IMG/VR virus record: IMGVR_UViG_3300046817_000760
Coordinates: 1-56,899 of that record
Direction: 5' to 3' (one strand)
Source of the DNA: a virus
Length of the DNA stretch: 56,899 bases
Shown: positions 1 through 55,617 of the stretch, one piece after another
Layout: each line of letters opens with the position of its first letter
How positions within the stretch are numbered: the stretch's first letter is position 1
Notes under the pieces: model-generated
The model's database searches: none
What the model was told of the DNA's origin: nothing
What the model saw: only the letters and a program-made list of their open reading frames with translations
Position numbers and translations under genes: made by a program

Positions 1-127
1 CTGCCGCGCGTGCGCAAGGCCTGGCTTGTGGTGCTCGTCTCGACGCCGGGCCGCGTCTCGACGCCGGGCCGCGTCTCGACGCCGGGCCGCGTCTCGACGC
101 CGGGCCGCGTCTCGACGCCGGGCCGCG
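1..127. repeat. 127-bp direct terminal redundancy (left copy)
   Basis: Bases 1-127 are identical to bases 56773-56899. The identity stops exactly at 127, a typical assembler k-mer length, so it most likely marks an artificial opening of a circular or circularly permuted molecule rather than a biological terminal repeat. The unique length would then be about 56,772 bp. Confidence 0.9.
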
Positions 128-136
128 TCTCGACGC
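37..136. repeat. Tandem array of an 18-bp unit
   Basis: GTCTCGACGCCGGGCCGC is repeated five times exactly from 37 to 126 and then partially to 136. The same array forms the right end of the window because of the terminal redundancy. Translation gives an (RRRAAS)n peptide from 26 that I regard as spurious. The array sits in a long gene-free region spanning the circle junction (56242 through 396), so it may be part of a cis site for packaging, resolution or replication. Confidence 0.9.
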
Positions 137-396
137 TCAGCTCGAAAGCACGCCGCGCACGTAATCATTAGGGAAATCGGCCCAATCCCGACCCGAACCG
201 GCCTACGTATCACGTTTGAGCCTATGTATCACGCGTGAGACCTATGGCGAGGCGTGTCTCTCGCGCCTAGCCGGAACATGAGCACGACCGAGCTCTTTCA
301 GTGTCCCACCCCACCGAAAGTGCAGATAGGCACGCATTCCCGGTGCAAGGTCGTGCATGATTATCTTGTCACCGAGACACGAAACGGAGCCCGACC
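137..396. promoter_or_regulatory. Gene-free region upstream of the first operon, with short direct repeats
   Basis: No convincing gene lies here. Two near-identical 19-20 bp units, CCTACGTATCACGTTTGAG (202-220) and CCTATGTATCACGCGTGAGA (221-240), are followed by a truncated third start, CCTATGG (241). Spaced direct repeats just upstream of an operon suggest an operator or activator site. TAATCATTAGG near 163-175 also occurs beside the iterons at about 5356. No clear sigma-70 promoter was found. Confidence 0.45.
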
Positions 397-546
397 ATGA
401 ACCCCGCCATCTTGAAGCCCCTCGACCACGTTGCTCTTCTCCTCACCCTCAAGCCCGCAAAGACCGCCGAAGGCCGCAAAGTCCAAGAGCGCGTCTTGTT
501 CCGAGTCGAGGTTGCCATGTGGATCAACGAAATGAAGGCGGTCTGA
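397..546 (+). CDS. Small hypothetical protein (49 aa)
   Basis: ATG at 397 follows a purine-rich CGGAG. The reading frame ends one base before the ATG of the next gene (548), the tight packing expected of a real phage operon. The protein is basic with a hydrophobic N-terminal half (MNPAILKPLDHVALLLTLK). No family is recognised. It is the first gene of the 0.4-1.7 kb cluster. Confidence 0.6.
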   Translation: MNPAILKPLDHVALLLTLKPAKTAEGRKVQERVLFRVEVAMWINEMKAV

Positions 547-547
547 A

Positions 548-730
548 ATGTCTCTCAAACTGTCTACCGTCTCTGTCTCTGTCTCTGATGCCATCTCCGC
601 CCTCAAAGGTTGCCCACGAGAGTGGAACGAAGATGCAGGGACCTACGTGTTCACGCTGCCGCTGGGCAGCAAAGCGACCCTCTCCGGCAACGCTGCCGAA
701 GTGTCTGCAGTCCTGAAAGGAACCAAGTGA
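548..730 (+). CDS. Small hypothetical protein (60 aa)
   Basis: It starts one base after the preceding stop and its TGA overlaps the ATG of the next gene (TGATG at 728-732), so translation is probably coupled. The sequence is Ser/Val-rich with no recognised motif. Confidence 0.65.
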   Translation: MSLKLSTVSVSVSDAISALKGCPREWNEDAGTYVFTLPLGSKATLSGNAAEVSAVLKGTK

Positions 731-918
731 TGGACCCCGTATCAATCACCTTTAACAGCAGCGTCCGCACGGGCAACGTGTCCGTGAAGGAAGCGATCGC
801 CAAGCTTGCTGGCTACACCAGCTACGTCTCGGGGAAGTACCGCAAGGGTAGCGATTACGCCGAAGTCTGCGGCTCACTCGAGTCCCGGTCTTTCATCCGC
901 CGCGCACTCACGAAGTAA
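730..918 (+). CDS. Small hypothetical protein (62 aa)
   Basis: The ATG at 730 overlaps the upstream stop codon, which fixes the start and implies coupling. The protein begins MDPVSITFNSSVRTGNV and contains YTSYVSGKYRKGSDYAE. No recognised domain. Confidence 0.65.
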   Translation: MDPVSITFNSSVRTGNVSVKEAIAKLAGYTSYVSGKYRKGSDYAEVCGSLESRSFIRRALTK

Positions 919-981
919 TCAAACCTCTGCTCCCCACGGGGAGTCTTGGTTTGCGTACATCGCAAGGAAAGTAGTACTCAA

Positions 982-1374
982 GTGGAACTGAACATCACTC
1001 GTTTCGTCCGCAAGCACTCTGACTGTATGGCCCGGTTCTCGGACTCGATTGCCAACAGCGGACTCCAGAACATCGGTGCCGTTACGTGGCGCAATGCCAT
1101 GGCTGCCATGGCCGACGAGTCCGAGTGGTTGTGCTCCGACCTAGAGGCGCTCCACGCCTATTTTGCAGGCTTTGGAGCGTGGGAACGCGCGGAACTGGAG
1201 GCGATGAGCGGACAGGAACTGAACGCCCTCTTGGTCCAGTTCATCGCTGGCGAGTATCAGAACTACACCGATGCTCGCGAGCAAGGCCGCAAGGCATTCC
1301 GTGAGTACCGTGAGAACCAGGGAGGCAGTCTGTACGGCCATCGTGGCCGGTGGTTCTATCTCGCCAGCATGTGA
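982..1374 (+). CDS. Conserved phage protein of the 'NITRFV...GAWE' type (130 aa)
   Basis: I choose GTG 982 because AAGGAAAG (964-971) lies 10 bases upstream and because similar small phage proteins begin (M)ELNITRFV. The interior shows VTWRNAMAAM, a GAW segment and ELNALLVQFIAGEY, an arrangement I recognise from other tailed-phage genomes; its function is unknown. A longer start at 946 is possible but would add residues not seen in such proteins. Confidence 0.7.
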   Translation: MELNITRFVRKHSDCMARFSDSIANSGLQNIGAVTWRNAMAAMADESEWLCSDLEALHAYFAGFGAWERAELEAMSGQELNALLVQFIAGEYQNYTDAREQGRKAFREYRENQGGSLYGHRGRWFYLASM

Positions 1375-1383
1375 CAGCCTCGC

Positions 1384-1397
1384 GCGCGCTTGCGCGC
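1384..1397 (+). terminator. GC hairpin between genes
   Basis: GCGCGC-TT-GCGCGC forms a short perfect hairpin just after the stop at 1374. There is no T-tract, so it may be a transcript-processing or pause site rather than a classical terminator. An almost identical hairpin lies at 2708-2722. Confidence 0.4.
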
Positions 1398-1465
1398 TCA
1401 CCAGAGTGTCTAAGCCACGGCTCGGACCCTCCGATGAGCTCACTAGCTCGGAAGGAAGCCCCACC

Positions 1466-1735
1466 ATGTTCGCCCATATCATCACTCAGTCCGCCCTCAC
1501 GTCTGCACTCGGCTCGCTCTACTGCGAGGCAGTGGCGGAACAGTGGGACCTGCCTCTCGACGTCCGCTTGTGCATCGATGGCGAGACGTGGACCTTACGC
1601 TCGGGAGACGTCTCTTTCGACACGTATCACTCGGCCCTTTGCGGGGCAGGGGAACTGGACGGGGAGACCATTCTCGCGGACCTTGCGGCCGACTTGCTCG
1701 CCCAGTGCGAGGAACAGGCCGCTGAAATAGAGTGA
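1466..1735 (+). CDS. Small acidic hypothetical protein (89 aa)
   Basis: ATG 1466 is preceded by GGAAGG at good spacing; the open frame extends upstream to 1271 only through the previous gene. The product is acidic (pI clearly low from its D/E-rich C-terminus, ILADLAADLLAQCEEQAAEIE). No family recognised. A small hairpin-rich gap (1736-1865) follows. Confidence 0.65.
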   Translation: MFAHIITQSALTSALGSLYCEAVAEQWDLPLDVRLCIDGETWTLRSGDVSFDTYHSALCGAGELDGETILADLAADLLAQCEEQAAEIE

Positions 1736-1903
1736 AGTGCTCATGCGAGCGCAGCGCATGTGTACGCAACTTAGGCGCACTCCTGCGCACCCCACACACT
1801 CAGACTTTTGCCGCTAGCGGACCCCAGTGAACATTCATTCACTGCAGTCCGGTGCCTGCAAAACACCCCAAGATTTTTTGACCCAACTACTGGAGTTCAC
1901 CCC

Positions 1904-2134
1904 ATGTCTAAGCCGTACCAAGGCCACAAGAGTTACAACGCTTGGAACGTGTGTCTCTGGCTTTTCAATGACGAAGCCTTGTATGGCCTAGTCCGCGACA
2001 GAGTCCAAGGATCGGACAATCTAGACGAAGCCGCAGAACACCTTTACGAGGACCTAGAAGGACGCTCCACACCTGACGGTGTTCCGTACACAAAGAGCAA
2101 CATTCGTCTCGCACTTCGCGGCGAGAAAAAGTAA
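1904..2134 (+). CDS. Small conserved phage protein (76 aa)
   Basis: ATG 1904 follows CTGGAG and a type B leader (1866). The N-terminus YQGHKSYNAWNVCLWLFNDEALY matches a pattern (K-S-x-N-A-W-N-V-x-L-W) seen in a family of small phage and plasmid proteins of unknown function. The gene is the first downstream of a hairpin-rich gap and ends 27 bases before the next gene. Confidence 0.7.
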   Translation: MSKPYQGHKSYNAWNVCLWLFNDEALYGLVRDRVQGSDNLDEAAEHLYEDLEGRSTPDGVPYTKSNIRLALRGEKK

Positions 2135-2161
2135 CCCCAAGATTTTTCAGGAGTAAGACAC

Positions 2162-2701
2162 ATGACTACCTTTCAAGAGTTCTGCACTGACAACGCGCTG
2201 ACCATGACGGCCAAGTACGTGGGCATTCGAGCCGACAAGCGGTCCACGCACAAGCCCAACACACGTGAACTAGCCGAACCGTGGCAACACTTTCTCTGGG
2301 CTTGCACACTCGAGTATCAGGGCCGCACGTACACGACAGAGTACAGACTCGGACTCGGCCACTGTACCAAAGGCAGGACCCACAAAGTACCTTGTGAGAT
2401 CGTGACAAACGATATTGCTCGCGCACTCAAGCCTTATGGTCGCATCGCGATAGCAGACGTGGAAGGGTACGTCACCCCTACGGCTCCTAGTCTAGTGGAC
2501 GTACTTGGCTCGCTTACAAGCGACGCTAGCGCGGCCCTGCACTGCAGAGACTTCGAGGATTTCTGCAACGAGTATGGGTACGATACGGACTCACGAGCCG
2601 CAGAGAAAGTGTACGCCGCTTGCACGCAAGTACACTTCGAGTTGTACAAGCTTCTAGGTGGGGGTCTGTACGAGACACTCCTAGCTTGCTCAGAAGAGTG
2701 A
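2162..2701 (+). CDS. Conserved phage protein of unknown function (179 aa)
   Basis: The start at 2162 is preceded by CAGGAGTAAG and a type B leader. The central W(x)CTLEYQGRTYTTEYRLGLGH strand pattern and the C-terminal DVLGSLTSDASA...FEDFCNEYGYDTDSRAAEKVY segment are typical of a protein found in many unrelated tailed phages. Its role is not known to me. It is followed by a GC hairpin (2708-2722). Confidence 0.75.
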   Translation: MTTFQEFCTDNALTMTAKYVGIRADKRSTHKPNTRELAEPWQHFLWACTLEYQGRTYTTEYRLGLGHCTKGRTHKVPCEIVTNDIARALKPYGRIAIADVEGYVTPTAPSLVDVLGSLTSDASAALHCRDFEDFCNEYGYDTDSRAAEKVYAACTQVHFELYKLLGGGLYETLLACSEE

Positions 2702-2707
2702 ACTAGG

Positions 2708-2722
2708 GCGCGCTTTGCGCGC
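2708..2722 (+). terminator. GC hairpin after the 179-aa gene
   Basis: GCGCGC-TTT-GCGCGC immediately downstream of a stop codon. No T-run follows, so it may pause or process the transcript. It matches the hairpin at 1384-1397. Confidence 0.4.
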
Positions 2723-2778
2723 TCACTCAAGTTCCCAATGGGTATTTGAGTGAGTCTGCAAACCCAAGGATTTTTACC

Positions 2779-3057
2779 ATGCAAGCCTACGTACACACTA
2801 AGGTACTTGGACACTACGGGATGGACACTCTCGCTACCGTTAGCGTGGACGTCAAGGTCGCACTCTTGCCGTGGCAAGAACGTGGACTCCAGTTCACTCG
2901 CACGGGTTACGGGCCAAAGATTCCCACACCTTACATGGTGCGATTCAATGGCCGCTGGCGTCGCGTGTACTGCTGTATCTACAGCAACAGTGGTACCTGC
3001 TACATCGGCAAGTTCGGCGGGCAGGCCGAGTCCCTAATCGTTCAGATTGAACAGTAA
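2779..3057 (+). CDS. Hypothetical protein (92 aa)
   Basis: ATG 2779 lies directly after the type A leader (2761-2778), which fixes the start. The protein has alternating hydrophobic segments (LATVSVDVKVALL, YMVRFNGRWRRVYCCIYS) consistent with a small beta-fold. No family recognised. Confidence 0.7.
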   Translation: MQAYVHTKVLGHYGMDTLATVSVDVKVALLPWQERGLQFTRTGYGPKIPTPYMVRFNGRWRRVYCCIYSNSGTCYIGKFGGQAESLIVQIEQ

Positions 3058-3098
3058 TCGTCCAAGATTTTTTGACTGCAAACCCAAGGATTTTTCAA

Positions 3099-3320
3099 AT
3101 GGCAAAAGCACTAGTCCGATTCACGCGCGAGCACACGGTAATCCGCCCAGCCACGGTCTTGGAGACCCACAACTTCGACGGCACTGTCACGCACATCGCG
3201 GACATTCCCGAGGCACGTACGGTCTACGTGACCGGCGAGACACACACGTTCCGCTCGGCAAAGGATGCGCTCGCCTTCGTCAAAGCGATGGACGGTGCCG
3301 CAGATCTCGTCAAAGCCTAA
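3099..3320 (+). CDS. Hypothetical protein (73 aa)
   Basis: ATG 3099 follows a type A leader (3081-3098). Read in frame from 3072, the leader would add the peptide NPRIFQ, which I regard as non-coding. The protein begins MAKALVRFTREHTVIRP and ends in an alanine-rich helix. Unknown function. Confidence 0.7.
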   Translation: MAKALVRFTREHTVIRPATVLETHNFDGTVTHIADIPEARTVYVTGETHTFRSAKDALAFVKAMDGAADLVKA

Positions 3321-3336
3321 ACCCAAGGATTTTTCA

Positions 3337-3609
3337 ATGCCTGTATCCACGACCATAAACGAACGAAACCTATTGCTCGCCATCCTTCAGTCCGATTTCC
3401 AGGATGGCAAGGAACCCGTCATGCACGCTGTGTGGTCCGATGACCTATGTGGGACACACACTCGAGCTGCGACGCTGGGCAGCCTGGTCAAGAAAGGACT
3501 GGCTGGCCAGCATGGCAAAGGTAGCGAAGCCGTCTGCTGGCTGACTGAGGCAGGCGCCGAAGTGATCGCCAACGAAGTGACGGCATACCGACTCGAGTAC
3601 AAGCTCTAG
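3337..3609 (+). CDS. Small winged-helix-like hypothetical protein (90 aa)
   Basis: The start at 3337 abuts a perfect type A leader (3320-3336) that begins at the previous stop codon. NERNLLLAILQSDF...TLGSLVKKGLAGQ...VCWLTEAGAEVI looks like a small winged-helix fold with a 'LTEAG' wing, as in phage proteins that read 'T..GL..LVKKGLV'. A DNA-binding role is an inference. Confidence 0.65.
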   Translation: MPVSTTINERNLLLAILQSDFQDGKEPVMHAVWSDDLCGTHTRAATLGSLVKKGLAGQHGKGSEAVCWLTEAGAEVIANEVTAYRLEYKL

Positions 3610-3712
3610 CCCCTGGCCGCGCCCACAGTGCGCGCTTGCCACAGCACCCCAACTTTTGATGGAGTGTTGCGGCGAGCTCACACTCGAGTTCTCAACCCAA
3701 GGATTTTTCATC

Positions 3713-4081
3713 ATGACCATGACCATCGAAGCACTCGAGAACGTAGAAGAGACTGGCATTGACCCCAACAAGGATATCGCTCGCGTTCGAGCTGGCTTGT
3801 CCTTTGAAGCCCTACTGGCCGAGTGCCTAGACGGCGCCGACCACGATCGTGAGACTGGCTGGCACGATTACGTCGAGTACGTGGCTGCCCACGCTTTCCC
3901 CCGGTTCGGGTTCGAGTGCTGGGACGATGAAGCCAAGCGCTGGGATGCCTCCCTATGTGGGCACCAAGACCGCTCCAACTGCTTCGCCACTCGTGCCGAG
4001 GCAGAGGCAGAGCTCCCCCGCTTGGCTAGCGTGATGGGCTGCCCAGTGTCGAAGCTGCGCGTGTCCTGGCTCGACGTCTGA
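3713..4081 (+). CDS. Acidic hypothetical protein (122 aa)
   Basis: A type A leader (3694-3710) precedes ATG 3713; a second ATG two codons later (3719) could also be used. The product is acidic and contains HDYVEYVAAHAFPRFGFECWDD. No known domain recognised. Confidence 0.65.
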   Translation: MTMTIEALENVEETGIDPNKDIARVRAGLSFEALLAECLDGADHDRETGWHDYVEYVAAHAFPRFGFECWDDEAKRWDASLCGHQDRSNCFATRAEAEAELPRLASVMGCPVSKLRVSWLDV

Positions 4082-4103
4082 CTTTCAACCCAAGGATTTT
4101 TCA

Positions 4104-4283
4104 ATGACCAAGTACCGAGTCACGAAACTTTTCATCTCCGGCGCACTGCAAGGGCTGACCTACGTCGAAACCTTGCCTGCAGACCTGGCCGCGCGCTTCC
4201 CTATCGGCACGGTCGTCCGCAAGCCCATCGGCGGGTCTCCCTACCGCATCATTGCGAACGAGCTTTCCACGTCCAGCCAGTAG
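4104..4283 (+). CDS. Small basic conserved phage protein (59 aa)
   Basis: ATG 4104 directly follows a perfect type A leader (4087-4103). The protein begins MTKYRVTKLFISGALQGL, a pattern shared with short phage proteins of unknown role, and contains YVETLPADLAARFPIGTVV. Frame is intact to TAG at 4281. Confidence 0.65.
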   Translation: MTKYRVTKLFISGALQGLTYVETLPADLAARFPIGTVVRKPIGGSPYRIIANELSTSSQ

Positions 4284-4330
4284 CACTGACACGACTCTTC
4301 ACGCCAACTACCGCGCCACCGAAGGGTCAC

Positions 4331-4525
4331 GTGCTCGTTGTGCACAGCGAGCACAATCGCGCGTCGCACACGTCCATCGCCAAGCTGACGATATCGGACA
4401 CTCTGACCAGCTATGAGTTCACCCAACTTTGCCAAGACACGCTCCATGTAAGTGAAGCTCACATGCCCCCATCCAGGGATACCGTGATGTTGGGGTCTCA
4501 TTTCAACCCAAGGATTTTTTCATGA
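4331..4525 (+). CDS. Doubtful small ORF
   Basis: GTG 4331 opens a 64-codon frame that runs through the leader at 4505 and ends overlapping the next ATG. Composition is unremarkable and the last residues (FNPRIFS) are the translated leader, so this may be non-coding. If it is not a gene, the stretch 4284-4504 holds nothing else I can identify; an opposing frame (4241-4501, minus) is equally unconvincing. Confidence 0.25.
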   Translation: MLVVHSEHNRASHTSIAKLTISDTLTSYEFTQLCQDTLHVSEAHMPPSRDTVMLGSHFNPRIFS

Positions 4526-4698
4526 CCAAGCAACACATTCAGTCGCCCTACGGAACAACTCTCTGCGGGCTCAACCAAACGGCACGCAAGACATGGGGTC
4601 TTAAGACTTGTGAGGTGTGTGCTCGTATCAATGCCCGCGCTGACGAGCTGCGTCAGCAAGCCACGGACAGGGCTAAGACCAAGCTCCCTAACAGATAA
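4522..4698 (+). CDS. Small Cys-containing protein (58 aa)
   Basis: ATG 4522 follows the type A leader at 4505-4521. Contains TLCGLNQTARKTWGLKTCEVCARINARADEL split as a C...CxxC arrangement (C15, C30, C33), possibly a small zinc-binding knuckle, followed by a basic helix. Function unknown. Confidence 0.6.
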   Translation: MTKQHIQSPYGTTLCGLNQTARKTWGLKTCEVCARINARADELRQQATDRAKTKLPNR

Positions 4699-4716
4699 GC
4701 TGGGCGAGGCAGCCAG

Positions 4717-4890
4717 GTGAACACCCCGCCCAAGATCGTGAAGCGCGTGTACGGCTACGCCTACCCTCGCAACGGCAACTTTCACAATCCCACACCGCGC
4801 GTCGCATGGGACCTGTTCGTCAACGGCAAGCTCGTTGACTCGTTCCCTACCAAGCGCGAAGCACTAGCCGCCATTGCTTCATACAAGTGA
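4717..4890 (+). CDS. Small hypothetical protein (57 aa)
   Basis: GTG 4717 lies 18 bases after the previous stop with GCGAGG upstream. Aromatic and basic (VKRVYGYAYPRNGNFHNP), then WDLFVNGKLVDSFPTKREAL, which looks like a short beta-hairpin followed by a helix. No family recognised. Confidence 0.6.
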   Translation: MNTPPKIVKRVYGYAYPRNGNFHNPTPRVAWDLFVNGKLVDSFPTKREALAAIASYK

Positions 4891-4922
4891 TTCCTTCCCC
4901 AAGATTTTTTAGGAGTACCCCC

Positions 4923-5096
4923 ATGTCCCACAAGCTTCCCCGAATCCTGCACCCCCGCTTCATCGACGAGACTCTCGAACGAGCACCCAAAGGTGCGACC
5001 ACCCTACATGCCCTCTACTGCATACCCGAGGGGGAGAACGTTCGGGTCATCGAGGATTGGAACTGCCTCCTGCGGCCACAGGACAAGGCATCGTGA
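4923..5096 (+). CDS. Small hypothetical protein (57 aa)
   Basis: AGGAG 9 bases before ATG 4923 and a type B leader (4897-4910) fix the start. The protein begins MSHKLPRILHPRFIDETLE. It is the last leader-bearing gene of the cluster. Confidence 0.65.
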   Translation: MSHKLPRILHPRFIDETLERAPKGATTLHALYCIPEGENVRVIEDWNCLLRPQDKAS

Positions 5097-5097
5097 T

Positions 5098-5205
5098 GTG
5101 GTGGATGCAGCCATCTCCGTAGCTACCTTCGTACCCAACCACTACGGCGGGTATGACCGTGTCGCACCTGACCCCACCATGGTGGATAGGATTCTCTGGG
5201 GCTGA
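5098..5205 (+). CDS. Possible micro-protein (35 aa)
   Basis: GTG 5098 (or 5101) begins one or four bases after the preceding stop, with AAGG upstream. Encodes VDAAISVATFVPNHYGGYDR and ends ...VDRILWG. The tight spacing favours translation, but the frame is short and unrecognised. Confidence 0.4.
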   Translation: MVDAAISVATFVPNHYGGYDRVAPDPTMVDRILWG

Positions 5206-5404
5206 CCGCTCTGTAACCACCGGCCGTAACCGCTTTGGGGTCGCCTTTCCTGAATGATTCCGGGCTTGCACCGTTGTAACCGGTTTTCTGCACTATACTC
5301 TCTATATCCTCCACAGAACTTTTGGCTGTTTTGACGGTTACATGGTTACATGGTTGTAATCATTAGGTAAGTACCGGTTACAAAACGGTTACAACGGTTA
5401 CAAA
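5206..5404. repeat. Iteron-like GGTTACA/TGTAACC cluster; possible replication origin
   Basis: GGTTACA occurs at 5336, 5344, 5376, 5387 and 5396, plus GGTTGTAA at 5352. Inverted copies (TGTAACC or GTAACC) lie at about 5212, 5226 and 5275. The copies flank an AT-richer stretch (5284-5335, with TATACTCTCTATATCC). Clustered iterons and an AT-rich segment beside a prim-pol/SF3 helicase gene, in the gap between convergent genes, fit an origin of the P4 or theta-plasmid type. The last repeat overlaps the helicase stop codon. Confidence 0.6.
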
Positions 5405-7716
5405 CCTCCTTCCATCAAGATGCCTGAGATTTTTTCCTCAAGTTCCTCCTCCAACCCCTCGTTCACGGCAAGTTGCCGAAGGGTGGACAGTCTGACGGCC
5501 CGCAGCTTCACGGGCTTGTCCTCGCCCAGCAGGTCCTTGCCAAACCTCAATGCCTTGCCCGAGCCTGGCTCTACCAAGGTCTTCATCACGTCGCCGAAGT
5601 CCTCGGGAACGTCCACCTTGCTCAGCAAGCTTGACCAGTACGTTTTGAGGTTGGTCTGCGATACCCACACCCGCCCATCACGAATGCAGCACACCCTCTC
5701 GTAGCGTTGGTCCTTGTCCAGAAGGGCATTGAGCAGTGCCCGCAGCACGGGTCCTGAGGCTTTCCCCCCCGCGCCAAGCAGCTCCGCCATGCCCCCTCGC
5801 CCCTGAACCAGGAAGCGCAGTCCCTTTGCCACCTGGCGGGTCTCCTGCAGCCACTGGACGTGCCGGGGCAGCCCGCCTCCAGCTACCCAAGCGTCTGTGG
5901 CTTCTCGACCCCCTAGCGCCTCCAGAAACCGCCTTGCTCCCTCGGTGGGCCGGACAAGCAGCACACGCTCGTCGAGCGCTTGGATGTCACTGTCAGTCAG
6001 CTGCCGGTCAAACTTGAACGACCCGGTGTTGTTGGTGGCCATGATGACCCGGTTGGCCCCCAAGAGGCGTGTAGGGTGGGCGTACTTCAACTCGACTTGC
6101 CGGGACGTGTTGCTGATCAGCTCTTTGAGGGCATCTACTGCGTTGCCGGTGTAACCCCGCGGGGCCCGTATGCCCTCGTTGGCCACCACCAAGGGCGAGG
6201 CCAGGAGCTCCTTGTTGAACTGCCCGAGCGTCCTATCGAAGGCGGTTCGCTGGCCGTCCCAGATGGCCGACAACCCATCGATCAACAAGTCCTTGCCCGC
6301 CCCGCTGAGGCCCATCACGCACAAGGCCGCCGTGGGCCGGGACAGTTCCCCCAGGGTGGCGAGCCAATCGAGCAAGGCATCACGGTGCTCCCCACCGAAC
6401 AGCTCTAGCCACTCAGCAATCTGAGGGTTGAACTCTGCTTTCCAAGGCTGCGGCTGCCCTACCTTTTGGACGAAGACGTTATCTACGAGCGTGCTGCGCT
6501 CGACCACGTAGGAGTAATGGACCTCGGTGAGAGACCGTCCGTACCTGTCGAGCAAAGTGGCCAGAGGTAAGAGTCTGCCTTCCTCGTTCTTGAGTTTCAC
6601 GGGTAAGACGTCGCGAGCCATGTTGACCACGAACTCGCGAAGGACCGGCCCCACGTACGAGCCCCTCGTCTCACGGAGGAAGTACCCAGCCGGGGTCCCC
6701 AGGATCCATCCCTTCTCGTCAGGTAGTATCAACTTGCTCCCATCCGGCCTTTGCCTGGAGGCAACCAGCTTGCCCCGGTACACCCCGTCCGTGACCGAGA
6801 GGGCATCGAGCTTGCGGAAAAACCAAGCCTTGTCGGTCTTTTCCGCGCAGTTCTCCAGTTTAGCTGTGGCCTCGAGAGTCCCCTTGAACACCTCGTACAA
6901 GCTCTCTCGGTCCAGGGGGACGTGGTCGACAAAGTTCCTCAACCCCCCCATCAGTTTATTGAACACGTCAGTCCGAGAGCCGTACTCCGCCCACGTCCTG
7001 CCAGCCAGGATCCTTTCCCCTGCCTCCACCACGTCCTGAGCGTCCTCGAACCTCTTTTTGTAGGTGATGAACGCTTCCATGTCTGAGCGTGTGAAGAGGC
7101 GTGTTCCCTCCAACTCGACAGGGGGAGCTGAGGGCAATACGTTCTGCTTGATCTTCTCCACGACCCACGAGGGAGCAGCCCGTAGTTTCTTCCGCTCGAT
7201 CTCCCCTTCGTACCTGGCCCCCGTCCAGTGAACGGAAGGGGGAACCACGATGTACCCCCCGGCCCCACGAACATCGATGTGTTGGGCACCAAGTCCACCC
7301 CGCGAGTTCGTGATACCCTCCTCGTACTGGTAGAGAAGGTGCGTACCCCCGCTCCCTGTTCGTAGGGCGATGGGTTCCCCCTCATCCCCGTACTGGTCCT
7401 GCAGCTCGCCCCATTCCCCAGGTCCATCGGGCAGGTCCAGGTCAATCACGAAGAACCCGGACTTGCCCGTGACCAGACCAATCCCGGCGTCCGGCCACTC
7501 AGCCCACCACCTAAGGATCTGCTCCTGGTCCCTGGAAGCATGGTCTTGCCAGGGGATGCGAGGGTGCTTGGCCTGGCACTCCCCCGCCCCTTTCCCAAGT
7601 GGTTTCCCGCACGAGCACTTGTCCCCTTGGGGTGAGTGCAAGGGGACGACGTAGAAACCCTCCATGGCATACTGGAGGGCATGGGGGGTGTTGGTCGCAG
7701 GGACGAGTGTGGGCAT
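5398..7716 (-). CDS. Bifunctional prim-pol primase / SF3 helicase
   Basis: Replication initiator: an archaeo-eukaryotic primase-type domain joined to a superfamily 3 (D5/P4 alpha-like) helicase, 772 aa. N-terminal motifs are a CxC...C...H zinc knuckle (C34, C36, C47, H51), IDLD (91-94), GSGGTH (121-126) and HIDVRG (146-151), the three catalytic prim-pol motifs. The helicase has Walker A GLSGAGKD (469-476), Walker B-like LVVANEG (509-515) and sensor VIMATNN (557-563). Its start follows a promoter-like TTGCCG-N16-GGTACT. The iteron cluster lies at its 3' end. Such proteins synthesise primers and unwind the origin. Confidence 0.92.
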   Translation of the reverse strand: MPTLVPATNTPHALQYAMEGFYVVPLHSPQGDKCSCGKPLGKGAGECQAKHPRIPWQDHASRDQEQILRWWAEWPDAGIGLVTGKSGFFVIDLDLPDGPGEWGELQDQYGDEGEPIALRTGSGGTHLLYQYEEGITNSRGGLGAQHIDVRGAGGYIVVPPSVHWTGARYEGEIERKKLRAAPSWVVEKIKQNVLPSAPPVELEGTRLFTRSDMEAFITYKKRFEDAQDVVEAGERILAGRTWAEYGSRTDVFNKLMGGLRNFVDHVPLDRESLYEVFKGTLEATAKLENCAEKTDKAWFFRKLDALSVTDGVYRGKLVASRQRPDGSKLILPDEKGWILGTPAGYFLRETRGSYVGPVLREFVVNMARDVLPVKLKNEEGRLLPLATLLDRYGRSLTEVHYSYVVERSTLVDNVFVQKVGQPQPWKAEFNPQIAEWLELFGGEHRDALLDWLATLGELSRPTAALCVMGLSGAGKDLLIDGLSAIWDGQRTAFDRTLGQFNKELLASPLVVANEGIRAPRGYTGNAVDALKELISNTSRQVELKYAHPTRLLGANRVIMATNNTGSFKFDRQLTDSDIQALDERVLLVRPTEGARRFLEALGGREATDAWVAGGGLPRHVQWLQETRQVAKGLRFLVQGRGGMAELLGAGGKASGPVLRALLNALLDKDQRYERVCCIRDGRVWVSQTNLKTYWSSLLSKVDVPEDFGDVMKTLVEPGSGKALRFGKDLLGEDKPVKLRAVRLSTLRQLAVNEGLEEELEEKISGILMEGGL

Positions 7717-7805
7717 AGGGGTAGACAGTACCGCTCAGACCGTACCCACGGCAACGTCCAGCTTCTCTCTTGACCCCTGCCCGTGATCTGCCCGATAGTG
7801 GACAA
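7714..7805 (-). promoter_or_regulatory. Divergent promoter region of the prim-pol gene
   Basis: On the minus strand TTGCCG (7754-7749), 16 bases, then GGTACT (7732-7727), with the ATG 10 bases further on. The same TTGCCG-N16-GGTACC arrangement precedes the leftward microgene operon at 18090. On the plus strand TTGACC (7770-7775) and GATAGT (7794-7799) lie in front of ATG 7806. Confidence 0.5.
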
Positions 7806-8060
7806 ATGCCGCGCCCACCGAGCCATCTCAAAGCCGACAAGTTCCGCTTACCCAAAGATAAAAAGACTCCCACGGTCTTCACCCCACCCCCCACCATCTC
7901 GCTACCCCTGTTTGACTTCGAGGCAGCGTACGTGATTGGTGCCTTGATCGACGCTCAAGAACGAGCTGCTTCGCAGGAAGGGGAAGTCTTTCAGCAAAAG
8001 GCCAAGGCCCTTTCCCTCATTGCTGCACGAATCGCCAAGGCATTTCGGGAACGGAAGTAG
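7806..8060 (+). CDS. Small hypothetical protein (84 aa)
   Basis: ATG 7806 is preferred; TTG 7770, also in frame, appears to be part of a -35 box. No Shine-Dalgarno is visible, and the putative -10 (GATAGT) is only six bases upstream, so the message may be leaderless. The N-terminal half is basic and proline-rich (HLKADKFRLPKDKKTPTVF), the C-terminal half helical and alanine-rich. A terminator follows. Confidence 0.6.
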   Translation: MPRPPSHLKADKFRLPKDKKTPTVFTPPPTISLPLFDFEAAYVIGALIDAQERAASQEGEVFQQKAKALSLIAARIAKAFRERK

Positions 8061-8068
8061 TTCTAGAC

Positions 8069-8098
8069 AAGGGACAAGACCAGAGGGTCTCCCTTTTC
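8069..8098 (+). terminator. Rho-independent terminator
   Basis: AAGGG-ACA-AGACC-AGAG-GGTCT-CCCTT followed by TT: a ten-base-pair stem with a three-base bulge, ending in a short T-run, nine bases after the stop of the preceding gene. Confidence 0.65.
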
Positions 8099-8118
8099 CT
8101 TGGTGTACTTGCGCTGCT

Positions 8119-8138
8119 GATCGGTGTATTCACCGATC
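8119..8138. promoter_or_regulatory. Perfect inverted repeat abutting a start codon
   Basis: GATCGGTG-TATT-CACCGATC, an 8-bp dyad with a four-base loop, ends directly at ATG 8139. It could be a repressor operator or an mRNA hairpin occluding the start. Confidence 0.6.
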
Positions 8139-8396
8139 ATGCAAGAGCGCACGCACCTGAGGGTTGTGCCTTCTCCAGTGGACACGTCCGACAAGGACAT
8201 GAGCACGTCCGACAAGGACATGAGCACGTCCGAAGCGGACATGTCTGATGTGTACATGGCAGCAGACGATGTGGACATGGCAGAGACACCCACATCCTCC
8301 GATATGGTCAAGCGCTATTTGTGTGTCGCACTGATTACGTTCTTGATCGAACTCACAATCTTCGCAATCATCGGACTCGTAATGGCTAGTCAGTAG
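8139..8396 (+). CDS. Small membrane protein with Asp/Ser/Met repeats (85 aa)
   Basis: ATG 8139 immediately follows a perfect inverted repeat; an upstream in-frame GTG (8124) lies inside that repeat and is less likely. The middle carries repeats of the form T-S-D-K-D-M-S, encoded by two identical 21-bp units (8184-8225) and a degenerate third. The C-terminus is a single transmembrane segment (LCVALITFLIELTIFAIIG). Topology suggests an acidic N-terminal domain and a C-terminal anchor. Function unknown; a superinfection or lysis-control role is only a guess. Confidence 0.55.
   Translation: MQERTHLRVVPSPVDTSDKDMSTSDKDMSTSEADMSDVYMAADDVDMAETPTSSDMVKRYLCVALITFLIELTIFAIIGLVMASQ
8184..8246 (+). repeat. 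21-bp tandem coding repeat
   Basis: Two identical 21-bp units (8184-8204 and 8205-8225) and one degenerate copy (8226-8246) encode the T-S-D-K-D-M-S motif of the small membrane protein, a sign of recent slippage or duplication. Confidence 0.85.
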
Positions 8397-8446
8397 ACCA
8401 TTTAGGGACAGCAAGTAAACAATACAAAAATAGTTTGGGGGGTTGG

Positions 8447-8647
8447 ATGTTCTACGTGATTACACTGCCCGCGTGCCGCGTGATGGGGTTCAAGTCGGAC
8501 ATCCGTTCGGCCCAACAGATCGTCGAGTGCTTGGGCGAGGGGGCCGAGTACGAAGAGATGGAGGGGCCGTACCCTCGTGACGAATGGACGATGGCCCTGA
8601 CGATTGAGCGGTACAAACGCGGCAAGGGGCTAAGGCTGGTTGTCTAG
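8447..8647 (+). CDS. Small hypothetical protein (66 aa)
   Basis: ATG 8447 follows a G-rich GGGGGGTTGG. The protein begins MFYVITLPACRVMGFKSD and has an acidic centre (GEGAEYEEMEGPYPRDEW). Unrecognised. The following gap (8648-8749) contains a promoter. Confidence 0.55.
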   Translation: MFYVITLPACRVMGFKSDIRSAQQIVECLGEGAEYEEMEGPYPRDEWTMALTIERYKRGKGLRLVV

Positions 8648-8713
8648 ATCCCCCCATCACGATTGCCGGACCAGGGGGCATGACTCGACCATGGGGGCCA
8701 AACAGGTATTTCC

Positions 8714-8743
8714 TTGACCCGGTGGGCAGGCAGGCCCTAACCT
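8714..8743 (+). promoter_or_regulatory. Putative promoter of a possibly leaderless gene
   Basis: TTGACC (8714-8719), 18-base spacer, TAACCT (8738-8743); the ATG is only six bases after the -10 box and no Shine-Dalgarno is present. A leaderless transcript is inferred. Confidence 0.5.
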
Positions 8744-8749
8744 TGGGGA

Positions 8750-9142
8750 ATGCAATCACGTTACGGAGCCACCCTCAAGACCCGCCCTGAAGAGGTCCAA
8801 GTCCGACTCGTCCCCAAAGTCCTTGGACCGCCAGTGCAGGTGACCTTTACGGAAGACGAGCGCAAGGCCGTTTTCCGCGCCACTTTGGAATTCGGCACGC
8901 CCCTGTCCACGTTCCTCCGAGACCTGGCCGTAGAAGCCGGTTCCCACCTGCACGAAAGGGCGGCCCAAGAGGCCCCCGCCGACAGGCGAGTGCAGTGGGT
9001 GGTGGAGCAAGGGGCAGCGGAGTGCTCGATGAGACCGGGGGAGTTTATGCGCTTCCTGGCCCTAGAGGCCGTGGGCTACACGCGCGGCGTCGAGCTAGCG
9101 ATGGCAGCGAGGCAAGCACTCGCGGCAAGGAAAAAGCTCTGA
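8750..9142 (+). CDS. Ribbon-helix-helix-like DNA-binding protein (130 aa)
   Basis: PVQVTFTEDERKAVFRATLEF followed by LSTFLRDLAVEAGSHL has the strand-helix-helix spacing of RHH proteins related to plasmid mobilisation regulators. A second, weaker helix-turn-helix-like pair (VVEQGAAECSMRPGEFMRFLALEAVG) follows, so it may be an internal duplication. The gene has its own promoter and sits at the head of a rightward operon, fitting a regulator. Assignment is by pattern only. Confidence 0.55.
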   Translation: MQSRYGATLKTRPEEVQVRLVPKVLGPPVQVTFTEDERKAVFRATLEFGTPLSTFLRDLAVEAGSHLHERAAQEAPADRRVQWVVEQGAAECSMRPGEFMRFLALEAVGYTRGVELAMAARQALAARKKL

Positions 9143-9163
9143 CCTGGGTTTGACCAAGGCGGA

Positions 9164-9201
9164 GTGGTCTCGGTCTGCCGTTTGTGGTACTCACCTGCAT
9201 G
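9164..9201 (+). promoter_or_regulatory. GGTAC-type promoter or operator motif
   Basis: TTTGTGGTACTCACCTGCATG, overlapping the start codon at 9199, matches the motifs at 18171 and 20551. The hexamer 16 bases upstream of GGTACT is GTGGTC, a weak -35 match. See the finding on the GGTAC family. Confidence 0.5.
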
Positions 9202-9417
9202 GAAGAAGAAGCCTGTGGTGTGGGCAGTGTCGAACGCAAGGCGGTCCTGGCTGCCATGGAAGGGCGAGCGGACGCCCTACACGCGATGCCGATATGGCAG
9301 CTCGAGGAAGCTGCGGCAGCACTCGCTTATTGCAAACGACAAGGGTGCAGACTCCATAACGACCCTGCCGCACAAGACCTTATCGAACAGATTCTGGACA
9401 GGGGACCGTGGTGGTAG
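9199..9417 (+). CDS. Small hypothetical protein (72 aa)
   Basis: ATG 9199 directly follows the GGTAC motif; the frame open to 9184 lies in the motif. Acidic N-terminus, then helices (LEEAAAALAYCKRQGCRLHN). The 3' end overlaps the start of the nuclease gene by ten bases, so the two are probably co-translated. Confidence 0.6.
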   Translation: MEEEACGVGSVERKAVLAAMEGRADALHAMPIWQLEEAAAALAYCKRQGCRLHNDPAAQDLIEQILDRGPWW

Positions 9418-10847
9418 ACTCCCACCTCTCCCCTACAGGAGCACCTTTCCTCTCTGTGTCCCAGGTAGAGACCGCCTTCGGCAATGAAGGGTGTCTGTTC
9501 AAGTGGGGACAGAGGTACCTTGCTCGTAACCTCCCACCACGTGATGGGTCTGCAGACTTGGGGACTCGTATCCATGAGATCAATCAGACCTTCATGGAAA
9601 CAGGGGCGGAGCCTGACTACTCCGAAACTCTGACACTCTGGCACAAGAGGAGGGCCGAATGGATCACGTACCAACCCGCACTGATCTGGAAGGTAGGGAT
9701 GCCCCTTCTCCCCCCGAGGGAGAGGGTCAAGTGCGAGGGGAAGTTCCAGTTTACAACGTCCATACATGGAGACCCGGTCTACTGGCGAGGGGCCAAGGAT
9801 ATGGAGTGGCAAGATTCCTCCGGCCTGTGGCACGTAGGGGATTTGAAAACATCCGTGTCGTTCACGTACCAGAAGACCGAAGAGAAGCTAAGGGCCGATT
9901 GGCAAGGGAACTTGTACGCCTACGAAGCTATGCAAAGGCATGGTGTCAAAGCCGTGGCTTTGGATTGGTTCACGTACATCACTGATCCAACGAAAACCCG
10001 AGAGTGCCGCCCCACCTCGATAGTGGTCCTCTATCCCGAAGTTTATGAGATCGTGGCCGCCATAGAAGGCAAGGGACGGGTCTTGCTTTCACACTACGCA
10101 CGCCCCCTGATCGTCGATAGACTGCCGAAGAACAGGTCAGCCTGCCAAGCGTTCGGCGGGTGCCCCTATTTGAATTCCCCGGCTTGCCCGGCTGAAACTC
10201 TAGAGGAAATGTTCGATATGCCCCTACATGATGATTTCCTGCAATCGATGACGACAAGGCTGGCGCCTCCTCCTCAACCATGGCGCCCTGGTGACCCCCT
10301 GAACTCGGCCCAAGAATACTTGCAAAATGCAGGGGCACCGCTCAGTGCAATTGCCAATGCAGCCGACGTCCCGCCCCTACCCGAGGTGGCCGCGGGCTAC
10401 GTGCCACCCCCGCCACCCCCGCCCCCGGTACTCCCATGGCCTCCTGTGGAGTCTGGCCTAATAAATCCGCCCGAGTCGAAGGGCCTTGTTGCTCCCCTCG
10501 CCCCCGAGGACATGGCTGCACCCCCCATCACGACACCTCCACCCACGCCCCCCATGCCCGATGACCTGGACACTCTGGACAGGGAGGAGATCAAGGCGCT
10601 TGGCGTCGAGCTGGGCCTGTTCGATGCCCACTGCCGATGGCAGATTGCACGCATGAGGGAGGCTGTACGAGCGAAGCGCAAGAGCAATGGTCTGCAAGGT
10701 ATTGCCCCCCCTGTGGAGGAGACTCCCACCCCACCAGTGCCTTTCATTGCTACCCCTGCACCTGACGGTTTGGAGATGCAGCAAATCTCGGAGACAAGGA
10801 TTCGTCAGATTGTCCGAGAAGAACTCCGCGCCCTATTTGTACCATGA
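9408..10847 (+). CDS. Cas4/RecB-type Fe-S nuclease with C-terminal SAP-like domain
   Basis: PD-(D/E)xK exonuclease-type protein, 479 aa. It has LGTRIHE (51-57), GDLKTS (144-149, catalytic D and K) and a following Q (166). Cysteines at 29, 246, 252 and 260 match the one-plus-three pattern that holds a 4Fe-4S cluster in Cas4 and AddB. A proline-rich linker (about 335-380) leads to DREEIKALGVELGLFDAH, resembling a SAP or Rho-N DNA-binding helix pair. Such proteins resect DNA ends for recombination; with the nearby helicase and polymerase a role in phage recombination or replication is likely. The GTG start overlaps the preceding gene. Confidence 0.82.
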   Translation: MVVDSHLSPTGAPFLSVSQVETAFGNEGCLFKWGQRYLARNLPPRDGSADLGTRIHEINQTFMETGAEPDYSETLTLWHKRRAEWITYQPALIWKVGMPLLPPRERVKCEGKFQFTTSIHGDPVYWRGAKDMEWQDSSGLWHVGDLKTSVSFTYQKTEEKLRADWQGNLYAYEAMQRHGVKAVALDWFTYITDPTKTRECRPTSIVVLYPEVYEIVAAIEGKGRVLLSHYARPLIVDRLPKNRSACQAFGGCPYLNSPACPAETLEEMFDMPLHDDFLQSMTTRLAPPPQPWRPGDPLNSAQEYLQNAGAPLSAIANAADVPPLPEVAAGYVPPPPPPPPVLPWPPVESGLINPPESKGLVAPLAPEDMAAPPITTPPPTPPMPDDLDTLDREEIKALGVELGLFDAHCRWQIARMREAVRAKRKSNGLQGIAPPVEETPTPPVPFIATPAPDGLEMQQISETRIRQIVREELRALFVP

Positions 10848-22500: not shown

Positions 22501-23769
22501 ATGAGAGCTGCATTTCTCCTCCTCCTGGTCCCATCCCTCGCCTTCGCCCAATCGGCCACGGTGACTCTGACCTGTCCCGAAGGCCCGCCCATCGTGGTGG
22601 TGGATGGCGGGGTCCCTCCCGGCGAGGATGCAGGACCTCCTCCTGAGATTGATGCAGGTCCCCCTCCCGTAGTGGACGCTGGGCCGCCCCCATCCAATCA
22701 TCGTCCCTCGGCATCCAAGGGCACGGGCTTTTATGTGGTCGGCCGCGAGCTGTACGATGGCAACGGGGCGCAGTTCACGATGAGGGGAACCAACAAAACC
22801 CATCAGGATAACTGGGGCCCTGGTTTGGGCCATACCGCGTCCAATACGACTAGATGGCTTGTCTATTTCTCCGATGATCCAACCCGTACCATCGAGGACA
22901 TGCAGAGTCCCAGTATCGGAGGCAGCACGACCTTTGGCAAGGCAGTGCAAGTACCCGGCTATTGGGATGGCACCTGCAAGTCAGACACGGGCACGTTCAA
23001 CACGATGGTCAACAGGTGGGTACGTGATGCTTCCAAATACCAGAGCATCGAACGCTACATGGTCCTGAACATCGCCAACGAATGGGGCTCTGACCATCGA
23101 GCGTGGCGAGACGCATACGTGGGAGCGATCCCCAAGATCCGCAACGCAGGCTGGCACGGGGCCATCATGGTCGACGCCCCTGGTTGTGGGCAGGATGCCC
23201 TGGCGATCGTGGAGTACGGGCAGGCCGTGTTCGACTCGGACCCCGAGAAAAACACACTCTTCGACTTCCACATCTACGGCAACTGGTCAGACAGTGGAGG
23301 GGGCGTGCCCCCGCAGTGGAATGGTCAACATGACCTCGGCCCCACGTTCGCCAAGCTCTACAACACGGGCCTGACCATCGTGGTGGGCGAGTTCGGACCC
23401 GGCCGCAACGTTGGCCCTTCCCCGACCATGATCACTCCCCAACGGGTGATAGAGGTTTCGGAACAATACGGGTTCGGGTGGCTCAGTTGGAGCTGGGAGG
23501 ACAACGACCAAGCCAATGCCAAGTGCTCGAACAACAGCTTCTGCCACACCTATGACACTTCGGACCCCAGTATCGAGCGGGCCAATCTCACCGACTTTGG
23601 CAACGTGATGGTTCCCCAGTGGGCGGCCTTGGCGCGAAAGGCTTCCGTGCTTGTGGAGTCGGGTACGCAGAGCTGGCCGTACTACCTGCTCCTCATCCCT
23701 CTCCTGGTCATCATTCTCGTGGTCGTGTTCTTGGTTAGGCGGAAGCGTCACCCGGGGTCGCGGCTTTGA
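22501..23769 (+). CDS. Secreted, membrane-anchored GH5-family glycoside hydrolase
   Basis: 422 aa. Residues 1-16 (RAAFLLLLVPSLAFAQ) are a signal peptide; 33-66 is a D-A-G-P-P-rich linker of a style typical of myxobacterial secreted proteins. The GH5-like barrel follows (GTGFYVVGRELYDGNG, 74-89), with acid/base Glu194 in NIANEWG and nucleophile Glu297 in VVGEFGP, HIYG (257-260) and a WLSWSWED end, resembling GH5_8 mannanases. Residues 394-412 form a membrane helix followed by RRKRH. The phage-encoded enzyme is thus probably exported and anchored, cutting a beta-mannan or related glycan at the host surface. Confidence 0.8.
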   Translation: MRAAFLLLLVPSLAFAQSATVTLTCPEGPPIVVVDGGVPPGEDAGPPPEIDAGPPPVVDAGPPPSNHRPSASKGTGFYVVGRELYDGNGAQFTMRGTNKTHQDNWGPGLGHTASNTTRWLVYFSDDPTRTIEDMQSPSIGGSTTFGKAVQVPGYWDGTCKSDTGTFNTMVNRWVRDASKYQSIERYMVLNIANEWGSDHRAWRDAYVGAIPKIRNAGWHGAIMVDAPGCGQDALAIVEYGQAVFDSDPEKNTLFDFHIYGNWSDSGGGVPPQWNGQHDLGPTFAKLYNTGLTIVVGEFGPGRNVGPSPTMITPQRVIEVSEQYGFGWLSWSWEDNDQANAKCSNNSFCHTYDTSDPSIERANLTDFGNVMVPQWAALARKASVLVESGTQSWPYYLLLIPLLVIILVVVFLVRRKRHPGSRL

Positions 23770-25733: not shown

Positions 25734-25999
25734 CCGAGTCCCCCTGGCTCACCACTCGAGAAGCCGCGGTCTACCTCAAGACCACGCCGGGGGCATTGCT
25801 CCAACACGTCAACCGTGGACATCTCGTGCCGGACAGCTTGGCACAGAGAAATCGTTTCCGAGGTCACCGTTTCTCGCTGAATACCCTAGACAGGTTCCTT
25901 TGCGGTCATCTATCATCCTCGGATGACAAAGACAGCGTGGACAGACGGCGTAAAGAAACTGGCACCCGGCAAGTACCTCGTACGCGTTACCTGGACTGA
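25730..25999 (+). CDS. Excisionase-like HTH protein (89 aa)
   Basis: GTG 25730 overlaps the previous stop. SPWLTTREAAVYLKTTPGAL...NRGHLVP...RNRFRGHRFSLNTLDRFL is a MerR/AlpA-type winged helix common to excisionases (Xis) and helix-turn-helix domain 17 proteins. Its 3' end overlaps the integrase by 77 bases, a frequent xis-int arrangement. Likely controls directionality of recombination. Confidence 0.75.
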   Translation: MTESPWLTTREAAVYLKTTPGALLQHVNRGHLVPDSLAQRNRFRGHRFSLNTLDRFLCGHLSSSDDKDSVDRRRKETGTRQVPRTRYLD

Positions 26000-27086
26000 C
26001 AAAATAGGCAAACGCCACGACACAGAACGCAAAGTGCTGGCCGACACGAAGGCCAAGGCCCAGCAGGCTCGCGCAGAGTTGCAACGCGAGCTAGCGGGTC
26101 CACGTGACCGAGGATGGCTACTCTCCCATGCCTTGGACCAGTACATCGCGACCACTCGTGATGGTACCAAGCACTGTTGGGACAGCTACGCCCGTCGTAT
26201 CAATAGGGCATTCGGGGGGCGCCGCCTCGGGGACATCACGACTGCCGAGATCCAGCGTTTCTTGTACAACCTGCCTCTTGCGGACAACACGGCGAACGGG
26301 TACCGCACGCTCTTTATCGGCACGTATAAGCACGCGCGGATCTGTGGAGAGTACGCAGGCGTGAACGTTGCCAAGGAGACTGAGGCGCGACGCCCAAAGA
26401 AGACCGAGGCAGAGCGACTAGCCGCCCTGGAAAACCCGGTCAAGCGTGCCTACCTGGGGGACGAGACGCAGCGCTTCCTAGCGGCCTTGGACCCGAACCT
26501 TCGCGCCCTGCAAATCATCCAGATATTTCTCGGTTGCCGATTTGGGGAGGCGAGCGCCCTCGAGTGGCGTGATGTGGACCTCGAGACGGGGGACGTCAAC
26601 ATTCGCCGCAAGCAGTACGTCAACGCTGTGAGCGTGCCCAAGAACGGCAAGGAACGGCCCACGGCTCTTGGGGCACAGGGCATCATGGTGCTCAAGGCGC
26701 ACAAGGCCCGGATGGAAGAGCTCAAGTGGCCTGGCTGGGATCGCCTGGTCTTCCCGCGCCCGGTCTCCTACCACGCCAGAGCCTCAGATATGTGGTCGAG
26801 CCGCACCGCGATCCTCAAGGTGACCCAAGCCCAAAAGGCTGCGGGCATCACGGTGAAGTCCAAGACCCACGCAGCCCGGCACACCCACATCACGCTGGCC
26901 GAGGTGGATCGGGTGCTCCACGTAGAAGCTTCCGTGGACCTTGGTGTCATCCACAGGCAGATGGTTGGCCACGCGAGCGAAGCGCAGAGTCGAGCTTACG
27001 TGGACAAAAGCGCTCTTCCCCGGCGCCGTCTCGCTGCTTCGATAGAAAAAGCAATAGTGGGAGAAATCCTGGGAACTGAGCCGTAA
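25923..27086 (+). CDS. int: Tyrosine integrase
   Basis: Site-specific recombinase of 387 aa. Catalytic pattern: R206 (GCRFGEA), K240/K243 region, H316-x-x-R319 (HAARH), H350 (VGHAS) and Tyr359 (SRAYVDK). The N-terminal part is an arm-binding and SAM-like core-binding domain. ATG 25923 overlaps the excisionase-like gene. A perfect inverted repeat (27107-27131) lies 20 bases downstream and is the likely attP core. Confidence 0.93.
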   Translation: MTKTAWTDGVKKLAPGKYLVRVTWTDKIGKRHDTERKVLADTKAKAQQARAELQRELAGPRDRGWLLSHALDQYIATTRDGTKHCWDSYARRINRAFGGRRLGDITTAEIQRFLYNLPLADNTANGYRTLFIGTYKHARICGEYAGVNVAKETEARRPKKTEAERLAALENPVKRAYLGDETQRFLAALDPNLRALQIIQIFLGCRFGEASALEWRDVDLETGDVNIRRKQYVNAVSVPKNGKERPTALGAQGIMVLKAHKARMEELKWPGWDRLVFPRPVSYHARASDMWSSRTAILKVTQAQKAAGITVKSKTHAARHTHITLAEVDRVLHVEASVDLGVIHRQMVGHASEAQSRAYVDKSALPRRRLAASIEKAIVGEILGTEP

Positions 27087-38993: not shown

Positions 38994-39030
38994 GCGCCAA
39001 CTCTGCCTGATGCCTCATCACGAATGCCCC

Positions 39031-39897: not shown

Positions 39898-39906
39898 GCC
39901 CTTCTC

Positions 39907-55209: not shown

Positions 55210-55466
55210 AACCTGTCCTCCATGATCGGGGTCTCCTCCCAACGAGGGTCCGTGTCGTTAAAGGGAGAGGCAGGCACATCCTCATACAGATGATCGGTCG
55301 TGTACCCCAAGGCCCTGAGTGTCTCGAACACACCCCGTGACCGAGCCTTGGCCAGACTCCCTACGATCGTACGAACGGGGTCTTCCCCGTCTGCAATCCT
55401 CGAAGCAAGCTTGGCCGCGAGCTCCCAATCGTGTTCACGGGCTTTGGACTTGAGAAAACGGGGCAT
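55206..55466 (-). CDS. Hypothetical protein (86 aa)
   Basis: GGAGG upstream supports ATG 55466. Contains RFLKSKAREHDWELAAKLAS and LAKARSRGVFETLRALGYTTD; mostly helical. First gene of a small leftward operon divergent from the resolvase. Confidence 0.55.
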   Translation of the reverse strand: MPRFLKSKAREHDWELAAKLASRIADGEDPVRTIVGSLAKARSRGVFETLRALGYTTDHLYEDVPASPFNDTDPRWEETPIMEDRF

Positions 55467-55608: not shown

Positions 55609-55617
55609 ATGGAACCC

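Follow-up and report, generated by a model that had tools for sequence, protein, structure and literature searches.

Analysis of a phage genome of 56,899 nt, recovered as the whole IMG/VR virus record IMGVR_UViG_3300046817_000760 (hereafter the 56.9-kb window, that is, the entire stretch analysed), revealed ten copies of a short motif, CCCAAG(G)ATTTTT, all on the + strand within 3 kb (positions 1866-4910) and directly before nine dissimilar genes. We consider these copies, with a probability of roughly 0.6, to represent a start-associated leader module with two roles, one in setting translation initiation and one as a recombination junction. The first-pass annotation of this DNA had noticed about ten such leaders before the same nine genes and had regarded the leader, not the proteins, as the conserved unit, which agrees with the present data: the encoded proteins gave no mutual BLASTP match below E = 0.4, and the conservation runs past the Shine-Dalgarno (SD) sequence. 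The nine start codons are ATG and all are starts of called genes, those of genes 1904, 2162 and 2779 being backed by homologues. The genes are referred to here as early, a designation inferred from their size and position.

The leader array

The leader copies and the genes behind them, all on the + strand, are as follows.

1866..1879, +, leader copy 1: type B (CCCCAAGATTTTTT); motif start 38 nt before ATG 1904; separate SD TGGAG
1904..2134, +, gene after copy 1: 76 aa (amino acids), DUF7249 / phrog_871
2135..2147, +, leader copy 2: type B; 27 nt before ATG 2162; separate SD AGGAG
2162..2701, +, gene after copy 2: 179 aa, phrog_4273
2714..2762, +, predicted strong RNA hairpin directly upstream of leader copy 3
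2761..2775, +, leader copy 3: type A (AACCCAAGGATTTTT) with SD inside; before ATG 2779
2779..3057, +, gene after copy 3: 92 aa, phrog_3436
3061..3076, +, leader copy 4: degenerate type B (TCCAAGATTTTTTGAC); abuts copy 5; 3062-3076 identical to 1868-1882
3076..3095, +, leader copy 5: type A with flank (CTGCAAACCCAAGGATTTTT); 20 nt identical to 2756-2775; before ATG 3099
3099..3320, +, gene after copies 4 and 5: 73 aa, without confident family
3320..3336, +, leader copy 6: type A; before ATG 3337
3337..3609, +, gene after copy 6: 90 aa, weak match only, to phrog_25342 (E 0.009)
3694..3710, +, leader copy 7: type A; before ATG 3713
3713..4081, +, gene after copy 7: 122 aa, without family
4087..4103, +, leader copy 8: type A; before ATG 4104; 30-nt context 93% identical to that of copy 9
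4104..4283, +, gene after copy 8: 59 aa, without family
4505..4521, +, leader copy 9: type A; before ATG 4522
4522..4698, +, gene after copy 9: 58 aa, without confident family
4897..4910, +, leader copy 10: type B, then SD AGGAG; before ATG 4923; CCCCAAGATTTTT-AGGAGTA common to copies 10 and 2
4923..5096, +, gene after copy 10: 57 aa, without family

The array was compared with randomized sequence. A scan with the 13-mer allowing two mismatches gave 11 matches, versus a mean of 0.85 and a maximum of 5 in 100 shuffles; the count exceeds ten because two type B copies match in two registers, and the degenerate copy at 3061 was caught only by a looser pattern. The 15-mer AACCCAAGGATTTTT occurs in six exact copies, and no 11-mer reached more than three copies in 20 Markov genomes. 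Every one of the ten copies falls within the 45 nt preceding a called start; such stretches account for 14% of the sequence in the region and 4% of that in the genome, and the rest of the window genome holds no further copy of CCCAAG(G)ATTTTT. The leader had no match in Rfam.

Alignment of the copies distinguished two forms. Type A (motif starts 2763, 3083, 3322, 3696, 4089 and 4507) is the exact 15-mer with the SD AAGGA inside the motif, and its spacing is tight, with 15-17 nt from motif start to ATG and the ATG 2-4 nt past the 13-mer. Type B (CCCCAAGATTTTT; motif starts 1866, 2135, 3061 and 4897) has one G fewer, starts 26-38 nt from the ATG and is followed by a separate SD (TGGAG or AGGAG), except at 3061, where an A copy follows instead, so that gene 3099 carries a B and an A copy in tandem. 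The earlier description of a conservation that extends beyond the SD into a T-rich tract thus holds for the extent of the similarity, with the correction that the copies fall into two forms and that the SD lies inside type A only.

The predicted pairing of the SD was -5.2 kcal/mol for the A copies versus an average of -5.55 for other genes, and SD strength alone therefore does not account for the identity of the leaders. The leaders, that of gene 2162 excepted, are predicted to be more open than other early starts, with a mean unpaired probability of 0.58-0.71 in eight of the nine leaders (0.44 for 2162) and of 0.39-0.49 at five other early starts. A strong hairpin (z about -3) is predicted ahead of copies 1, 3 and 7, the ones with a longer intergenic gap; these hairpins have no sequence in common with one another, and a regular hairpin accompanying every leader was rejected, given its presence at those three copies only. 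Judged from position and sequence, each copy would serve the following gene as its leader for translation initiation, with the SD and a U-rich spacer supplied by type A and with type B lying directly upstream of a separate SD. A common post-transcriptional control by the leader, as the first-pass annotation had proposed, is plausible from its position.

Shared flanks and proposed leader-to-leader exchange

The similarity between copies extends into their flanks in several pairs. The flanks at 2756 and 3076 are identical over 20 nt, those at 1868 and 3062 are identical over 15 nt, those at 2135 and 4897 share 95% over 21 nt, and those at 4083 and 4501 share 93% over 30 nt, first codons included. 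For the upstream flanks of the A copies, matches of this kind have a probability of about 0.001 for six random anchors in the region. This flank similarity suggests that the leader copies are of shared descent, and not convergent ribosome-binding sites, and that they were duplicated and passed among unrelated small genes. The leader before gene 3099 is built of two parts placed back to back, 15 nt equal to leader 1 being followed, with a one-base overlap, by 20 nt equal to leader 3, an arrangement that fits leader-to-leader joining. Because the copies form direct repeats of 15-30 nt at gene boundaries, recombination between two of them would be able to add or remove a complete leader-plus-gene unit with the neighbouring genes unharmed, and the outcome would be an array of accessory genes under one uniform start signal.

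A presence/absence difference of this type was found between two other phage loci. The search for relatives of gene 2779 returned eleven loci, among them L195 and L196 (54% and 53% aa identity, respectively), in which a leader of a different sequence, TTTAAGGATGCCGACCATG, and its close variants occur in six and five copies, on one strand, before consecutive small dissimilar genes. Comparison of L195 with L196 revealed a clean 239-bp presence/absence difference consisting of one leader and one 75-aa gene (from ATG L195:5163), flanked at both ends by a 20-bp direct repeat, ATTTAAGGATGCCGACCATG, which is the leader itself (L195 5146-5404; L196 5146-5165). When the 239-bp unit was excised in silico from L195, 295 of 300 bases were identical to L196, which suggests that the difference is the natural product of leader-to-leader gene gain or loss, in either direction. 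Further, L195, L196 and their records G401 and G402 contain three start-leader families in one phage, namely AAGGATGCCRACCATG, AAAGGCC...ATG (about four copies) and AAAGGACA...ATG (two copies); at L195 946, the leader AAAGGACA is common to L195 and L196 and is followed by different genes. The recombination target postulated in the first-pass annotation has thereby gained indirect but concrete backing from L195/L196 and from the flanks in the window.

Occurrence in other genomes and genomic context

The exact 17-mer matched 14 times in 2.9 million IMG/VR viral contigs and 48 times in 84,980 GTDB species genomes, always singly per stretch, where about 5 and about 30 matches, respectively, are expected by our own arithmetic. 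A scan of IMG/VR with the exact 15-mer yielded single-copy matches only, and the B-plus-SD pattern had no match. Since the exact-match scans gave single copies and the 17-mer counts were near chance, no sister arrays were recovered by them. Among 399 genomes of Pseudomonadota, five contained the motif with an ATG behind it, never more than once per genome; the leader is thus not a habitual host leader in the genomes searched, contrary to what the first-pass annotation had named as a refutation of its proposal, and for a host outside the 399-genome sample the 17-mer scan alone applies.

The exact 15-mer AACCCAAGGATTTTT was also found once per locus in unrelated phages (L003-L011, L048, L064, L076, L097, L102, L116, L121, L125 and L138), where it stands immediately in front of the ATG that opens a conserved phage gene (MDFNKYNSRAH..., MTPLEFLAAVL...). 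Our reading of these single copies is that a workable ribosome-binding site was arrived at by convergence. A start leader repeated to a similar extent was not detected in the phages FoX4, Ab03, PMBT23, RcCWillis, SDFMU_EhYP, Tola and LMAVpVPP, chosen via homologues of 1904, 2162 or 2779, or in ctsHD2, chosen via its DNA polymerase, and no array with the window motif was present in the other phage early regions examined. In a non-random sample of about 200 loci, only the window and L195 had at least four copies of an 11-mer before distinct open reading frames.

A DNA similarity search of window positions 1750-9700 against phage records found no relative, and scans with the primase, the polymerase and gene 2162 found no close relative. 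The terminase scan identified a real relative, the 13.8-kb contig L188 (terminase 78% aa identity; one 4.1-kb block 94% nt identity), which spans other parts of the genome and does not include the leader array region. Syntenic arrays with the same motif but other genes, named in the first-pass annotation as support for its proposal, were accordingly not found.

The first and last 127 bases of the window are identical (1-127 and 56773-56899), and on account of this terminal repeat the genome is probably complete and circularly assembled. These termini are composed mostly of an 18-bp tandem repeat, and the assembly may therefore have closed on a low-complexity repeat. The genome encodes a Prim-Pol primase, a DNA polymerase, a terminase and one tRNA-Tyr, together with both a tyrosine integrase and a serine recombinase/invertase (25923-27086 + and 55300-56241 +). 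A 422-aa protein (22501-23769, +) matches glycosyl hydrolase family 5 (cellulase; E 5e-17), an unusual phage cargo whose gene adjoins the replication genes and lies apart from those for the tail. For three proteins of 866-1024 aa (33525-43451, -), neither PHROGs nor Pfam gave a match; they are probably virion proteins of an undescribed lineage.

Alternative explanations and comparison with known systems

Several observations weigh against a leader module that serves both initiation and recombination. The B copies have no SD and lie 26-38 nt from the ATG, so that a single ribosome-binding role fails to cover both forms; gene 4717, located within the array, has no leader copy; the flank similarities in the window are short, reaching few nt past the motif; and the recombination product was seen with another leader in another phage lineage. 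Among the alternatives, a site for a trans-acting regulator is unlikely, albeit the least unlikely of them: a phage or host RNA-binding protein would recognize CCCAAG(G)AUUUUU and repress or activate the nine genes jointly, in the manner of T4 RegA. The strict conservation over 13-15 nt past the SD speaks for it, as do the mostly unstructured state of the leaders and the proximity of both forms to the ribosome footprint, near enough to control initiation; RegA sites are themselves single-stranded and rich in A+U, and they overlap the AUG or lie right next to it (PMC3014915). However, B and A copies differ by an indel in the core, the distance to the ATG varies from 15 to 38 nt, and no candidate regulator, be it of the RegA, CsrA, Hfq or another RNA-binding family, was found among the roughly 45 window proteins scanned. 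A CsrA-like reading of the motif (CAAGGAU) was set aside because type B has no GGA. Somewhat less probable again is a pure recombination linker or hitch-hiker, in which an adequate ribosome-binding site with no regulatory role multiplied since boundary repeats favour cassette gain. The leader-to-leader presence/absence in L195/L196, the flank pairs in the window and the ordinary SD strength are all in line with this explanation, but six copies are identical in 15 of 15 positions, non-SD bases included, which suggests recent spread or selection, and no array-bearing relative was found from which to gauge constraint.

An element acting on the DNA level, either a phage promoter element or an operator bound by a repressor, is very improbable. 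The layout does recall stoperators, with asymmetric 13-bp repeats that share one orientation and sit at gene boundaries, and three copies are preceded by intergenic hairpins; yet in type A the motif start keeps a constant distance of 15-17 nt to the ATG and the SD lies inside, no copies occur elsewhere in the genome, and no sigma-70-like promoter was found in 1-5400, where 1.7 were expected. The stoperators of cluster A mycobacteriophages are GGTGGMTGTCAAG repeats bound by the phage repressor, and this consensus had 4 weak matches in the window (3.8 expected), that is, chance level. The smallest weight by far, practically nil, falls to chance or ordinary SD-level similarity. AAGGA is indeed an ordinary SD, and in unrelated phages the 15-mer is found singly in front of genes, but the shuffles and Markov genomes fall short of the observed count and the shuffles refute this explanation; the alignment similarity exceeds that of an SD, none of the Pseudomonadota genomes has more than one start-associated copy, and the window motif formed no array in the other early regions.

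The leader module can be compared with several described systems. The sites of T4 RegA are likewise leader-region RNA sites common to many early genes, but they show no clear sequence conservation (PMC3014915), and the window proteins scanned had no match to the RegA family. According to PMC4503421, the promoter early stem-loops (PeSLs) of T4-type phages are promoter-terminator composites between early genes, in which an early sigma-70 promoter is joined to a terminator stem-loop, and repeated regulatory sequences of this kind have been proposed to mediate gene shuffling (Arbiol 2010 and Comeau 2014, as cited there). The window resembles them in having repeats between early genes, with three copies also preceded by a hairpin, and differs from them in that its repeat is a start leader in a region (1-5400) where no sigma-70-like promoter was found. 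Short conserved boundary sequences at mosaic junctions have been proposed to guide homologous recombination between modules (PMC3029335); the short homologies at gene boundaries are similar in both cases, whereas the boundary in the window is a multi-copy translation leader in one genome, and L195/L196 show the recombined product directly.

The closest parallel is offered by the Start-Associated Sequences (SAS) of cluster K mycobacteriophages (Pope et al. 2011, PMC3203893), whose function was left unsettled there. SAS are 13-bp asymmetric, SD-containing repeats located about 3-9 bp upstream of a start codon that is mostly ATG, and about half of them carry a conserved 17-bp inverted repeat upstream (ESAS) (PMC3203893). 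Both SAS and the window leader occur in a single orientation before non-structural genes of different families, and an SD core with conservation past the SD is common to SAS and type A, though not to type B. As to the distance to the start codon, which is within a few nt in SAS, the ATG follows 2-4 nt after the 13-mer in type A and 26-38 nt after the motif start in type B, all nine starts in the window being ATG. The window leader differs in that it belongs to an unrelated phage, is packed in one 3-kb block and exists in two forms, one of them without an SD. It also has no shared extended inverted repeat like ESAS, its three upstream hairpins being of unshared sequence, and the SAS sequence GGGATAGGAGCCC had no match in the window at up to two mismatches. 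Since the layout is common and the sequence and the ESAS extension are not, the window leader appears to work like SAS but is not a member of the SAS family.

Taken together, these comparisons raise the possibility, which we advance tentatively and at somewhat less than even odds, that several unrelated phage lineages each possess their own start-leader family as plug-in junctions, combining a start signal and a recombination site in one. A new early gene arriving with its leader would be translated at once and could be cleanly lost. The window (CCCAAG(G)ATTTTT) would be one such case, L195/L196 (AAGGATGCCRACC) another and the cluster K SAS possibly a third. The window and L195/L196 together suggest a simple, testable route to turnover-rich sets of small early genes, with identical start leaders as exchange points, and to the role of the cluster K SAS, a standing question since 2011, the window adds a comparable array outside the mycobacteriophages.

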